A DNA stretch of 64,000 nucleotides, from positions 248,001-312,000 of the forward strand of contig NZ_JAWDIC010000003.1 in NCBI RefSeq assembly GCF_032464895.1, given 5' to 3'. This DNA comes from Phycicoccus sp. M110.8. Its GTDB lineage: Bacteria > Actinomycetota > Actinomycetes > Actinomycetales > Dermatophilaceae. The translations under genes and the position numbers were made by a program. Below the pieces are notes generated by a model. That model saw only the letters and a list, made by a program, of their open reading frames with translations. It did not search any database and had not been told where the DNA came from. Positions 7,501 to 25,353 of this stretch are shown here, piece by piece; the stretch's first letter is position 1; the number at the start of each line of letters is the position of its first letter.

Positions 7501-7944
7501 TTACTGGGAGACCTGGGAGATCTCGAACGGGACGGGCTTCTGGGCGGCGTGCGGGTGTTCGGCGCCGGCGTAGACCTTGAGCTTGGTCAGCTGCTGGCGG
7601 CCCAGGGTGGTCTTGGGGAGCATGCCGCGGACGGCCTTCTCGATCGCCTTCTCGGGGCTCTTGGCGAGCAGCTCGGTGTACGAGGTGCTCTTGAGGCCGC
7701 CCGGGAAGCCGGAGTGCCGGTAGGCCCGCTTCTGCTCCGCCTTGGCGCCGGTGAGGGCGACCTTGTCGGCGTTGATGATGATGACGAAGTCACCACCGTC
7801 GACGTGCGGGGCGAAGGTGGGCTTGTGCTTGCCGCGCAGCAGCGTCGCGGTCTGGGACGCGAGGCGGCCCAGCACGACGTCCGTGGCGTCGATGACGTGC
7901 CAGTTCCGAGTGACCTCGGCCGGCTTCGGGGTGAAGGTGCGCAA
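7501..7944 (-). CDS. rplM: 50S ribosomal protein L13
   Basis: L13, an early 23S rRNA-binding assembly protein of the large subunit. The 147-residue sequence contains the conserved core [16 protein letters not shown] and [13 protein letters not shown], and ends normally. The start codon is TTG at 7944, preceded by AAAGG at about 9 nt; other actinobacterial L13 proteins begin with the same MRTF/MRTY-like sequence, which supports this choice. It is the first gene of rplM-rpsI. Transcription probably starts near 8036 from the promoter at 8043-8071, leaving a leader of about 90 nt. Confidence 0.97.
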
Positions 7945-8042
7945 AGTTCTGTGCCTTTACAACGGTTCGGATGGTGCGTATGCCGTGGGCGCCCGAGGCG
8001 CTGGCGAGTCGCCCGCGAGGGCGCACGACACAACAGTCCTCA

Positions 8043-8071
8043 AGTTTAGGGGCGACCAGGGACAGGCCCAA
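8043..8071 (-). promoter_or_regulatory. rplM-rpsI promoter
   Basis: On the minus strand TTGGGC (8066-8071) is separated by exactly 17 bp from TAAACT (8043-8048), a good sigma-A-type pair. The -35 sits inside GATTTGGGC, an element also present at the rpsJ and rpsL promoters. The predicted start near 8036 gives a short leader before the TTG of rplM. Confidence 0.65.
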
Positions 8072-8131
8072 ATCGCCGCAGCGAGCCGTCGAAACCGCCC
8101 CGGACCTGCACGAATGAGGATACACAATGTC

Positions 8132-8176
8132 TGTGCACACTTCTTGTGCAAACAGACTGTGCAAAGGTATTGTGCA
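8132..8176 (+). promoter_or_regulatory. four TGTGCA half-sites at exact 13-bp intervals; promoter of the ArsR-like gene
   Basis: TGTGCA occurs at 8132, 8145, 8158 and 8171, each 13 bp after the last. The fourth copy is 4 bp from the ATG at 8180. TATTGT (8168-8173) fits a -10 element with transcription starting at or next to the ATG, and the TTGTGC at 8144-8149 fits a -35 with an 18-bp spacer. The repeats therefore cover the whole core promoter and are a likely operator array for the winged-helix regulator just downstream. Confidence 0.6.
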
Positions 8177-8179
8177 CGC

Positions 8180-8800
8180 ATGGCCTCTCCCACCCCTCGT
8201 GAGCACCTCGGCGACATGACCGGCCTGCGCCTGGACGCCGCGGCCGTGAAGGTCCTCGCCCACCCCCTGCGCTCCCGGCTGCTGGGCGCCCTGCGCGTTG
8301 GCGGCCCGGCCACCGCGACCGACCTGGCCACCCGGCTCGGCACCAACTCGGGCGCGACGTCCTACCACCTGCGCAAGCTGGAGTCCGTCGGCCTCGTCGA
8401 GGACAGCGGCGAGGGCGAGGGCAAGCGCCGGCTCTGGCGCGCGGCCACCGACTTCCACACGTGGGACCCCAGCGACTTCGAGGGCGACGAGGACTCCGAG
8501 ACGGCGCTCAACTGGCTGGTCCGCGACTACGCCCGGCACTTCTCCGAGCAGTTCGAGCGGTGGCTGGACGTCGAGGCCGACTGGCCGATGCCCTGGCGCG
8601 ACGCGGCCGGCATGAGCGACTCGTTCATCATCGCCACGCCCGAGCAGGTCGAGCAGCTCAAGGCCGAGCTCGACGAGCTGCTCATCCGCTACCGCCGCGT
8701 CGGCCAGGGCAACCCGAACGCCCGCAGGCTCGCCGTCTACAGCGCCCTCTACCCCCTCGACCTCGACCGCGCACCGCGCTCCCGGGAGCAACGGTCATGA
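8180..8800 (+). CDS. ArsR-like winged-helix transcriptional regulator
   Basis: A 206-residue cytoplasmic DNA-binding protein. Residues about 15-85 form an ArsR/HTH_20-type winged helix: LAHPLRSRLLGALRVGGPAT leads into TNSGATSYHLRKLESVGLV, the recognition helix and wing. The rest is helical and probably senses a ligand or dimerises; no metal-binding cysteine pair is visible, so this is not a classical metal-responsive ArsR. ATG 8180 was chosen because the upstream frame runs into the rplM promoter; the mRNA looks leaderless. Its stop overlaps the next ATG as ATGA, so it is cotranscribed with the MFS gene and probably regulates it. The TGTGCA array upstream is the likely operator. Confidence 0.85.
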   Translation: MASPTPREHLGDMTGLRLDAAAVKVLAHPLRSRLLGALRVGGPATATDLATRLGTNSGATSYHLRKLESVGLVEDSGEGEGKRRLWRAATDFHTWDPSDFEGDEDSETALNWLVRDYARHFSEQFERWLDVEADWPMPWRDAAGMSDSFIIATPEQVEQLKAELDELLIRYRRVGQGNPNARRLAVYSALYPLDLDRAPRSREQRS

Positions 8801-10083
8801 CCACCACGCTGTCCCCCACCGGCGCGCGGCGGGTCTTCCTCGTCCTGACGACCACGCGCTGGCTGCCCGTGGGCTTCGTGGTCGGGCTGTTCGCGCTCAT
8901 CGCCCGCGAGCGTGGCCTGTCGGTCGAGCAGATCACGCTCTACATGACCGCCCAGGGGATCATGGTCTTCCTGCTCGAGCTGCCGACGAGCGGCTTCGCC
9001 GATGTGCTCGGCCGCAAGCCGGTCCTGCTGGTCGCGGGAGTGGTCAACGTCCTGGCCGGCTTCGCCTACCTGTTCGCCCACTCGTTCTGGCAGTTCGCCG
9101 TGGCCGCCGGACTCATGGGCGTCTACCGCGCGCTGGACTCGGGCCCGCTCGAGGCCTGGTACGTCGACACCGTCCACGACCGGGAGCCCGGCGCCGACGT
9201 CCACCGCGCCATGTCGGCCCAGGGAGTCCTCGTCGGGGTCGGGCTCGGCGGTGGGGCCCTGGTGTCCGGCGGCCTGGTCGCCTGGCACCCCGTCCACGGG
9301 TCCAGCGCCCTGCTGCTGCCGATCCAGGTGTTCGTGACGCTGTGCGTGGTCCACCTGGTCGCGACGGCCGTCCTCCTGCGCGAGACCCCGCGCAGCGACG
9401 CCCGGCTGCGCGCCCGGCTGGGTTCCTCGGTGCGCGAGACGCCCATGGTGGTGCGTGACGGGCTGGGAATGCTGGGGCGCAACCGCGCGCTGCTGGGCCT
9501 GGTCCTCGTGGAGGCCTTCTGGGTGACGGGCATGACCGCCTACGAGACCTTCATGCCGCTGCGCCTCTCCGAGCTGCTCGGGTCCGAGGCGCGCGCCGGC
9601 GCGTGGATGGGTCCGGCGGCGGCCGGCGGCTGGGCGCTGTTCTCGGTCGGGTCGTGGCTCGGCGGGCGTGCCGCAGACCGGCTGGGCCTGGTGCCGGCCG
9701 CGGCCCTGGGGCGCGTCCTCAACGGGCTCGGCGCCCTGTGCATGGGACTGGTGTTCGGGCCCGCCGCCCTGGTCGCGGCCTACCTCGTAACCTACACGCT
9801 GCACGGCGCCGCGAGCCCGGCATACGCGGGGCTGCTGCACCGCGAGGCCAGCTCACGCAACCGCGCGACCATCCTGTCGATGAGCTCGCTCGCCATGCAG
9901 GCCGGCGGCGCCGTCGCCGGGCCGCTGCTGGGCCTGCTCGCCGCACGCACGTCGATCGCGACGGCCATGGTCGTCGCGGGGGCGGTCAGCACCTTGGGGG
10001 TCGTGTGCTTCCTGCCCGCCTGGCGCGTGCGCCGCCGCGGCGTCGATGTCGAGGACGCCCCGGCCGTTCCGTCCCAGGCCTGA
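8797..10083 (+). CDS. MFS transporter, putative exporter
   Basis: A 428-residue major facilitator protein with about 12 hydrophobic segments. The cytoplasmic loop 2-3 carries GFADVLGRKPVLL, the MFS motif A, and a matching GGRAADRLGL lies at the start of the second half. Close matches would be actinobacterial MFS proteins of unknown substrate; drug efflux is the likeliest role, but the substrate cannot be read from sequence. It overlaps the regulator gene by 4 bp, a fixed start and a strong sign of joint control. It is followed after 43 bp by an FMN-binding-fold gene. Confidence 0.88.
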   Translation: MTTTLSPTGARRVFLVLTTTRWLPVGFVVGLFALIARERGLSVEQITLYMTAQGIMVFLLELPTSGFADVLGRKPVLLVAGVVNVLAGFAYLFAHSFWQFAVAAGLMGVYRALDSGPLEAWYVDTVHDREPGADVHRAMSAQGVLVGVGLGGGALVSGGLVAWHPVHGSSALLLPIQVFVTLCVVHLVATAVLLRETPRSDARLRARLGSSVRETPMVVRDGLGMLGRNRALLGLVLVEAFWVTGMTAYETFMPLRLSELLGSEARAGAWMGPAAAGGWALFSVGSWLGGRAADRLGLVPAAALGRVLNGLGALCMGLVFGPAALVAAYLVTYTLHGAASPAYAGLLHREASSRNRATILSMSSLAMQAGGAVAGPLLGLLAARTSIATAMVVAGAVSTLGVVCFLPAWRVRRRGVDVEDAPAVPSQA

Positions 10084-10126: not shown

Positions 10127-10621
10127 GTGAACGCCGACCAGCTCGCCGCCGTCCTCGCCAAGCCGATCGCCCAGGAGCTGCTCACCGGCCCGCACCTCGC
10201 CCGACTCGCCTACACCGGGCTCGACGGCGCGCCCCGGGTCGTGCCGATCGGGTTCCTGTGGAACGGCACGCAGGTGGACATGTGGACCGTCCCGGGCTCG
10301 GCGAAGGTCAGGGCCCTCGCAGCGGACCCGCGGGTGGCGCTCACCATCGACACCGCCGGTATGCCGCCACGCGTGCTGCTCCTGCGCGGCACCGCCGAGC
10401 TCACCACGATCGAGGGGATCCCCGAGGGCTACCTCGCGGCCGCCCCCAAGGCGGTCCCGGCCGACCAGCTCGAGCAGTGGGAGGCCGGCGTGCGCGCGCT
10501 GTACGACTCGATGGTGCAGGTCCGGGTCACGCCGACGTGGGCGACCCTGCACGACTTCGAGACGACCCTGCCGAAGGCCGTCCAGGACCTGCTCGACGCC
10601 AAGGCCGCCGAGCAGGCCTGA
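10127..10621 (+). CDS. pyridoxamine 5'-phosphate oxidase-fold (FMN-binding split barrel) protein
   Basis: A 164-residue protein of the PNPOx-like FMN/F420-binding split-barrel superfamily. The core has LARLAYTGLDGAPRVVPIGF followed by a VRALAADPRVALTID strand and loop, the usual order for the single-domain forms. Members reduce or oxidise small molecules with FMN, F420 or haem; which cofactor applies here cannot be told. The GTG start at 10127 has GAAGGAG about 6 nt upstream. It is probably the third gene of the regulator-MFS unit. It converges on the next MFS gene with only 6 bp between stops and no terminator hairpin visible in that gap. Confidence 0.82.
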   Translation: MNADQLAAVLAKPIAQELLTGPHLARLAYTGLDGAPRVVPIGFLWNGTQVDMWTVPGSAKVRALAADPRVALTIDTAGMPPRVLLLRGTAELTTIEGIPEGYLAAAPKAVPADQLEQWEAGVRALYDSMVQVRVTPTWATLHDFETTLPKAVQDLLDAKAAEQA

Positions 10622-24318: not shown

Positions 24319-25353
24319 TCAGAGCTGCTCGTCCTCGGCCAGCGAACGGCCGTCGTCGGAGAAGTCGTCGTCGTAGTCGCCGTAGTTGTCGGCGATCGCG
24401 GAGGGGTCGAACCCGGGCGGGCTGTCCTTGAGGGCCAGGCCCATGCCGGCCAGCTTGGCCTTGACCTCGTCGATCGACTTCGCACCGAAGTTGCGGATGT
24501 CGAGCAGGTCCGCCTCGCTGCGGCCCACGAGCTCACCCACGGTGTGGATGCCCTCGCGCTTGAGGCAGTTGTACGAGCGGACGGTCAGGTCGAGGTCCTC
24601 GATCGGCAGCGCCAGGTCGGCGGCCAGGGCCGCGTCGGTCGGCGACGGGCCCATGTCGATGCCCTCGGCCTCGACGTTGAGCTCGCGGGCCAGGCCGAAC
24701 AGCTCGACCAGCGTCTTGCCGGCGGAGGCCATCGCGTCACGGGGAGCCATCGAGTTCTTGGTCTCGACGTCGACGATCAGCTTGTCGAAGTCGGTGCGCT
24801 GCTCCACACGGGTGGCCTCGACCTTGTAGGTCACGGCCAGCACCGGGCTGTAGATGGAGTCGACCGGGATCCGGCCGATCTCCTGGTCACCGGACTTGTT
24901 CTGCTGGGCCGAGACGTAGCCGCGACCGCGCTCGACGGTCAGCTCCATCTCGATCTTGCCCTTGCCGTTGAGCGTGGCGATGTGCAGGTCGGGGTTGTGC
25001 ACCTCGACACCCGCGGGCGGGGCGATGTCGGCAGCGGTGACCGCGCCGGCGCCCTGCTTGCGCAGGTACATCACGACCGGCTCGTCGTGCTCCGAGGAGA
25101 CCACGAGCTGCTTGATGTTGAGGATGATCTCGGTGACGTCCTCCTTGACCCCGGGGATCGTGGAGAACTCGTGCAGCACGCCGTCGATGCGGATGCTGGT
25201 GACCGAGGCACCCGGGATGCTCGAGAGCAGGGTGCGACGCAGGGAGTTGCCGAGCGTGTAGCCGAAGCCGGGCTCGAGGGGCTCGATGACGAAGCGGCTG
25301 CGGTTGTCCGCAACGACGTCTTCGCTGAGCGTGGGGCGCTGTGCGATGAGCAC
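24319..25353 (-). CDS. rpoA: RNA polymerase alpha subunit
   Basis: A 344-residue alpha subunit, which dimerises to nucleate RNA polymerase assembly. The N-terminal domain (about 1-230) has [20 protein letters not shown] and the dimer interface. The C-terminal domain (about 260-325) has the DNA- and activator-binding helices around [20 protein letters not shown] and [12 protein letters not shown]. An acidic Asp-rich tail closes the protein, as in other actinobacteria. The start is GTG 25353. A 151-bp gap with a strong hairpin (25462-25494) separates it from rpsD, which may set the level of alpha relative to the ribosomal proteins upstream. Confidence 0.98.

Follow-up and report, generated by a model that had tools for sequence, protein, structure and literature searches.

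Overlapping TGCA palindromes as a probable autoregulatory operator of an ArsR-like regulator-MFS transporter operon in Phycicoccus

Results

Gene organization and properties of the regulator

The window, i.e., the whole stretch of 64,000 nucleotides from Phycicoccus sp. M110.8 that was analyzed, carries on the plus strand a gene for an ArsR-like winged-helix regulator of 206 amino acids (8180..8800, ATG start) followed by a gene for an MFS transporter of 428 amino acids (8797..10083, plus strand; MFS_1, E 4e-24), whose start overlaps the stop codon of the regulator gene. With overlapping open reading frames on the same strand, the two genes form a regulator-transporter operon. An earlier note on this DNA had already coupled the regulator to an MFS exporter, and besides the overlap the neighborhoods of orthologues agree with this: 65 of the 80 named loci (the best 80 of 269) have an MFS relative near the regulator gene, and some of the others end at a contig boundary. 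The divergent neighbor is the rplM-rpsI operon, named from its sequence, with rplM (ribosomal protein L13) at 7501..7944 on the minus strand. A third open reading frame downstream (10127-10621) is pyridoxamine-5'-phosphate-oxidase-like (PNPOx_N, E 3.7e-10); a relative of it lies within the flank of only 1 of the same best 80 of 269 loci.

The regulator matched HTH_20 (E 2.8e-14) and HTH_5 (E 4.1e-9) above the Pfam cut-offs, as is characteristic of an ArsR-type winged-helix domain, and profile searches of the PDB hit ArsR chains with a best E value of 3.4e-6. In an NCBIfam comparison covering two proteins, its HTH_metalloreg score was below the cut-off (48.4 vs. 55 bits). Since, in addition, the 206-aa translation contains no cysteine for a cysteine-based metal site, it is unlikely that the regulator senses metals in the usual way. 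An AlphaFold2 model of the monomer, based on an alignment of 34 of 138 orthologue rows, had a mean pLDDT of 89.3 and a pTM of 0.81. The predicted fold is an ArsR-type winged helix, with the winged-helix elements modelled at residues 20-94, a helix in recognition position at residues 57-69 and a long C-terminal helical part.

A TGTGCA array upstream of the regulator gene

On the plus strand the hexamer TGTGCA occurs at 8132, 8145, 8158, and 8171, i.e., four times with a step of exactly 13 bp, as the earlier note had described. The gap between the last copy and the ATG (8180-8182) is 3 bp and not 4 bp as given there. By itself TGTGCA is not enriched, with 20 occurrences on both strands of the window and 21.3 expected, and the improbable feature is the spacing of the copies rather than the frequency of the word. 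When the 235-bp intergenic region was simulated 200,000 times with a Markov model, a pair of TGTGCA words 13 bp apart appeared at a frequency of 0.00012 and a triple never. Elsewhere in the window, a TGTGCA pair at 24981 and 24996, with copies 15 bp apart, was set aside after inspection of the sequence. A scan of 7900-8250 against Rfam with E values up to 1 gave no match, nor did a search of a plasmid collection with 8095-8200 as query.

The copies of the array are directly followed on their 3' side by CA or AA, a feature absent from the earlier note, and for this reason they can be read as parts of inverted repeats. The motif is then a 17-bp palindrome, TGCAMA-N5-TKTGCA, with 12 specified positions. 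Upstream of the array and in register with it lies a degenerate fifth half-site, TACACA (8121-8126), which had been missed, so that the window holds four overlapping palindromes, of which three are exact and the most upstream one includes this degenerate half-site; none of them is assigned to a strand. Dyad 1 (8121..8137, TACACA-ATGTC-TGTGCA) has the degenerate left half, matches 11 of 12 positions and starts 13 bp upstream of dyad 2. The other three, dyad 2 (8134..8150, TGCACA-CTTCT-TGTGCA), dyad 3 (8147..8163, TGCAAA-CAGAC-TGTGCA), and dyad 4 (8160..8176, TGCAAA-GGTAT-TGTGCA), match all 12 positions. Within one dyad the centers of the hexamers are 11 bp apart, and each dyad is shifted by 13 bp relative to the previous one. 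In the 4.1-Mb genome of the window the exact dyad was found at these three places only, all at this promoter, and the reversed control gave none.

Conservation of the array in orthologues

Of 98 genomes searched with the regulator, 85 gave a match. The family of the window was represented by 60 genomes, and in 58 of them the best match was taken as the orthologue; genome G039 had none, and the best match of G038 (38% identity) was placed with the paralogues. The set of named loci overlaps this set of 58 genomes in part. Within these best 80 of 269 loci, the closest orthologues come from Pedococcus, Phycicoccus, and Knoellia, the best ten with 77-83% identity, and more distant ones from Terrabacter, Promicromonospora, Microbacterium, Galactobacter, and Ornithinimicrobium.

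The earlier note had proposed to look for the TGTGCA spacing in orthologues, and it is conserved there: in the named set (best 80 of 269), a dyad matching at least 10 of 12 positions is present in 80 of 80 loci, and two dyads exactly 13 bp apart in 76 of 80. Upstream of the 58 orthologues, 66 windows matched the dyad at 12/12, 43 at 11/12, and 32 at 10/12 positions, compared to 0.005, 0.2, and 1.9 expected from Markov copies, and they were mostly spaced in 13-bp steps. No dyad window with at least 9/12 positions was found upstream of two of the 58 (L045 and L052). An exact TGCA core is absent upstream in three of them (L045, L052, and L056) and present once in five (L029, L044, L048, L050, and L053); some of these eight still reach 10 or 11/12 for the dyad. 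When 58 genomes including that of the window were searched for TGTGCA-N7-TGTGCA, 49 places in 26 genomes were listed, and four in the reversed control. Among the listed places, 45 lie in the window's family, 42 of these at the regulator promoter as judged by coordinates. In the 15 named loci without a detected MFS relative (among the best 80 of 269), the dyad was kept in 15 of 15 and two dyads at 13 bp in 11 of 15.

The array is conserved and very probably a functional operator, and its conservation upstream of the ArsR-like gene in orthologues supports the selection that had been proposed for it. Part of that proposal was that the 7 bp between the copies are not exact repeats. They do differ from each other within the window; across the orthologues several gap positions are conserved.

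With rplM as divergent neighbor in 65 of the best 80 of 269 loci, the array could in principle serve the rplM-rpsI operon. It abuts the start codon of the regulator gene, however, and all 15 named loci without rplM (among the same 80) retain two dyads 13 bp apart. We therefore do not think that rplM uses the array and give this explanation hardly any credence. Further upstream (7945-8120 of the window; compared in L104-L183), two other blocks are found: CAAATC in 51 of the 65 loci with rplM and 0 of the 15 without, and GACCTGC in 51 of 65 and 3 of 15, respectively. These blocks go with rplM and may be part of its promoter or leader.

Direct half-sites or overlapping palindromes

In the earlier note the array was taken as four direct half-sites that require an unusual oligomer or else bending or wrapping of the DNA; separate subunits would then sit head to tail on TGTGCA along a helical path with a 13-bp step. 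TGTGCA is indeed the strongest word and the inner spacing is strictly 13 bp. The TGCA core is its own reverse complement and receives a direction only from its flanks: TG before the core points one way, and CA or AA after it the other. In a row of direct TGTGCA sites, TG would be expected at every unit including the most upstream one. For an analysis of the array edges, arrays were defined as exact TGCA cores at 13-bp steps with the flanks ignored; initial statistics, in which the edges had been defined with the very flanks under test, were discarded and recalculated with cores only. Identical arrays were counted once, and cores inside ATGGCTGCA were excluded as coding. A first pass gave 110 distinct arrays, none of them in L045 or L052, and a second pass over 138 rows gave 104 distinct arrays with at least two cores.

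In these 104 arrays, TG preceded the core in 35 of 104 left-edge (most upstream) units compared to 196 of 255 other units (p 2e-14), and CA or AA followed it in 37 of 104 right-edge (most downstream) units compared to 176 of the 255 remaining ones (p 8e-9); since the rows are related, these pooled p-values are too optimistic. When the sample was reduced to a single genome from each genus (48 genomes, 40 arrays), the effect had the same direction with p 0.03 for TG and 0.02 for CA or AA, and for the 28 arrays of this sample with at least three cores p was 0.07 and 0.04. Outward flanks are therefore depleted at the array edges, as predicted by palindromes and against the expectation for direct sites. 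The 17 arrays with just two exact cores, several of which have a degenerate third core, showed stronger inverted similarity in nine cases, stronger direct similarity in four, and ties in four; the four direct cases would suit head-to-tail sites, and overall the Wilcoxon test was not significant (p 0.21). Among the distant orthologues some keep a single inverted repeat, for example L057 with GATTGCACA-AAACT-TGTGCAATC and L056 with GATCGCACA-CTTAT-TGTGCGATC, the core of the latter being altered symmetrically on both sides. Mirror-symmetric arrangements such as GTGAGAGA...TCTCGAAA...TCTCTCAC also occur among the 14-bp arrays of paralogues described below. Direct half-sites are consequently very unlikely in our opinion, and a need for an unusual oligomer is not supported. 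With hexamer centers 11 bp apart, a single dyad is laid out like a normal binding site for a dimer.

Taken together, the flank statistics and the distant orthologues with only one inverted repeat favor overlapping two-sided palindromes, in which each inner unit TGTGCAMA would be the end of one palindrome and the beginning of the next.

Promoter elements within the array

A simple scan of 7940-8260 for sigma-70 promoters and terminators found no site, and the promoter was therefore read from conservation. In 94 rows the start codon closely follows the last core; the base profile comprised the 58 of these with seven bases from the start of the core to the start codon, and the other 36 have eight. 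A -35-like element, TTGTGC (8144..8149, plus strand), lies inside a half-site and occupies positions -36 to -31 relative to the start codon, with T, T, and G in 91, 93, and 91% of the 58 aligned rows. The -10 element TATTGT (8168..8173, plus strand; TANNNT) is located at -12 to -7 with T in 100%, A in 98%, and T in 100%. The percentages at core positions are partly built in, as the 58 rows were chosen for having dyads, but three positions, -12 (T), -11 (A), and -36 (T), lie in the free N5, outside the motif used for row selection. Dyad 4 covers the -10 element, dyad 3 lies mostly in the spacer, and dyad 2 covers the -35 element. Inverted repeats are thus located over the promoter elements of the operon as read from conservation, and the overlap of the array with -35 and -10 that had been claimed before is supported on this basis. 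If transcription begins at the start codon, both elements are at the usual distances, so the mRNA of the regulator gene is probably leaderless, with a transcript starting from or next to the ATG.

Because two units coincide with -35 and -10, conservation might be possible without a repressor, the array being mostly promoter sequence that is only incidentally periodic, or it might be bound by a different regulator. The unit between the elements (-20 to -17) is dispensable for the promoter as such, and yet each of its positions follows TGCA in 98-100%; for the unit before the -35 element the values are 77-86%, again in the 58 rows chosen for arrays. A different regulator is disfavored by the exact dyad, whose restriction to one promoter in the genome argues against a global regulator, and by the joint shift of word and period with the clade and the recognition helix of the adjacent regulator (see below). 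We regard this pair of explanations as rather unlikely, though slightly less so than direct half-sites.

Arrays of paralogues have a 14-bp period

Regions of 120 bp (110 bp upstream of the match plus 10 bp inside) were scanned for periodicity at lags of 8-21 with a shuffle-based 5% threshold. The sample consisted of the 58 orthologues and of 52 paralogues with 31-42% identity, taken down the list of lower-scoring matches. Lag 13 was found in 38 of the 43 orthologues above threshold (58 scanned) and lag 14 in 24 of the 26 paralogues above threshold (52 scanned). The best lag irrespective of the threshold was 13 in 45 of 58 orthologues and 14 in 42 of 52 paralogues. In control regions 410-290 bp upstream, 11 of 110 were above threshold (about 5.5 expected), six of them at lag 12, and none of the 110 at lag 13 or 14. 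A phylogenetic tree separated the 58 orthologues from the 52 paralogues with a support of 100/100; with tree labels assigned at looser thresholds than in the lag test, label 13 was confined to orthologues (42 of 58) and label 14 to paralogues (42 of 52).

The words of the arrays were paired with the recognition helices by eye. Most rows with TGTGCA have the helix ATSYHLR(K/R)L, while ATSYHLRQL pairs with TTTGCAAAG, GSASHHLKVL with TTGTGCAA, and SVTSWHLRHL with TGAGAGA/TCTCGA. Array word and recognition helix, as paired by eye, vary together by paralogue group, and this is the best indirect support for each array being a target of the product of its neighboring gene.

A paralogue in the genome of the window, L069, is preceded by TTGTGCAA-type words in a 14-bp step, the middle one inverted, which end at the start codon; its best lag is 14, which for this copy is below the significance threshold. 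The open reading frame before L069 on the same strand presumably resembles a heme A synthase-type membrane protein. In another paralogue group (L070, L198, L202, L206, L207, L212, and L222), the gene is preceded by the mirror-symmetric element GTGAGAGA-N4-TCTCGAAA-N5-CTCTCAC or close variants of it, corresponding to three half-sites and two overlapping dyads. In two further members of the L070 group, L209 and L218, the gene is preceded by a long inverted repeat, GTTGGAAGCGAAACTT...AAGTTTCGCTTCCAAC, with a TCTCTCAC or CCTCTCAC word further upstream.

Discussion

Proposed mode of action

In our proposal, the array functions as an autoregulatory operator-promoter for the regulator and MFS genes and is bound by homodimers of the regulator on 17-bp palindromes, a reading to which we assign a probability of roughly 0.8. 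It builds on directly computed properties, i.e., the sequence, its conservation, the symmetry statistics, the genome-wide uniqueness of the exact dyad, and the link to the regulator gene, and on the predicted fold; from these we infer binding, the dimer, repression, the ligand, and the occupancy. Each TGCAMA-N5-TKTGCA would accommodate one homodimer of the ArsR-like protein (206 aa) as the binding unit. A distance of 11 bp between the hexamer centers is about one helical turn and suits a winged-helix dimer on one face of the DNA. The four palindromes would overlap in 13-bp steps via the common self-complementary core TGCA, with TGTGCAMA serving as the right half of one dyad and the left half of the next. 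Dimers on the -35 (TTGTGC) and -10 (TATTGT) elements would block RNA polymerase and repress the genes of the regulator and the MFS protein, and they would be released by a ligand, probably a compound transported by the MFS protein. Repression by occlusion and release by a ligand are assumed here because they are the usual logic of regulator-transporter operons.

With a helical repeat of 10.5 bp, successive dyads, which have a core in common, are offset by 13 bp or 44 Å and 86 degrees, and alternate dyads by 26 bp or 88 Å and about 171 degrees, i.e., they lie on opposite faces. A clash should result if the recognition helices of two dimers were placed on the same four base pairs, and alternate occupancy is therefore expected; by this geometric argument, dimers might fill either dyads 1 and 3 or dyads 2 and 4. 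A more speculative extension, which we consider doubtful, is an open-ended chain in which each inner TGTGCAMA would be touched by subunits of two adjacent dimers and protein would wind around the DNA in steps of 13 bp (14 bp in the paralogues), with the array length setting the steepness of the switch and the period being a heritable property of the clade.

An unannotated promoter is in this way turned into a specific candidate operator code for uncharacterized actinobacterial regulators, namely a 17-bp dyad in 13-bp steps in one clade and in 14-bp steps in the paralogues, with operator words that track the recognition helix across regulator clades. Orthologous promoters with two to five or six half-sites offer a natural dose series for sharing, alternation, or polymerization of dimers, and with the promoter known, the regulator-MFS pairs could be screened for ligands.

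Comparison with known systems

According to the passages available to us (PMC8790569), an element recognized by SmtB/ArsR regulators consists of one or two 12-2-12 inverted repeats that lie close to the start site or overlap it, and binding of AzuR showed positive cooperativity. As far as these passages go, the system described here resembles such operators in the ArsR-type winged-helix regulator and the imperfect inverted repeat at the promoter, and it differs in that the repeats overlap in a run with common half-sites. The distance from core to core in the window is 13 bp, read as 12-1-12, in contrast to 14 bp as counted from 12-2-12, which is the period of the paralogues when taken as the distance between arm centers. 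As further differences, the regulator has no cysteine and possesses a long C-terminal helical part.

A winged-helix dimer on a palindrome of self-complementary words is also found in CapS, where ten bases lie between the TTAA words, further dimers add along the DNA, and the repressor acts on its own promoter, as described in the excerpts at hand (PMC13373217). By our count from these excerpts, the TTAA words are 14 bp apart from core to core. Shared features are thus the winged-helix regulator, the palindrome of self-complementary words, and the own promoter, which is the proposed target here, whereas CapS is set apart by a STAS domain, by an additional dimer interface, and by a narrow palindrome whose words are separated by 1 bp. 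A 13-bp run of half-sites in common is not described in the CapS passages available to us (PMC13373217).

The best near-full-length structural match of the regulator model was Kfla_6221 of Kribbella (PDB 4g6q; Z 10.8, rmsd 4.9, 168 of 177 residues aligned), which was also at rank 1 in Foldseek with a TM of 0.50 by query length. Its identity to the regulator is 17-18%, and the same Z is reached by ArsR proteins whose alignment is limited to the winged helix, the region over which many of them matched the model. We know of no operator for Kfla_6221. Several dimers on overlapping palindromes are known for Fur and DtxR/IdeR, which belong to other protein families and have offsets of about 5-6 bp; they are like the proposed array in the overlap of dimer sites and differ from it in family and in offset (about 5-6 vs. 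13 bp).

A literature search in titles and the beginnings of abstracts, with subscription journals mostly outside its range, included TTTGCAAAG, GAGAGAGT with ArsR, and TTGTGCAA and returned no description of this operator; within the same scope, a run of dyads that share half-sites with a clade-specific step of 13 or 14 bp was not described either. Relative to the 12-2-12 operator of ArsR/SmtB, what is new is chiefly the half-sites in common and the split between periods of 13 and 14 bp.
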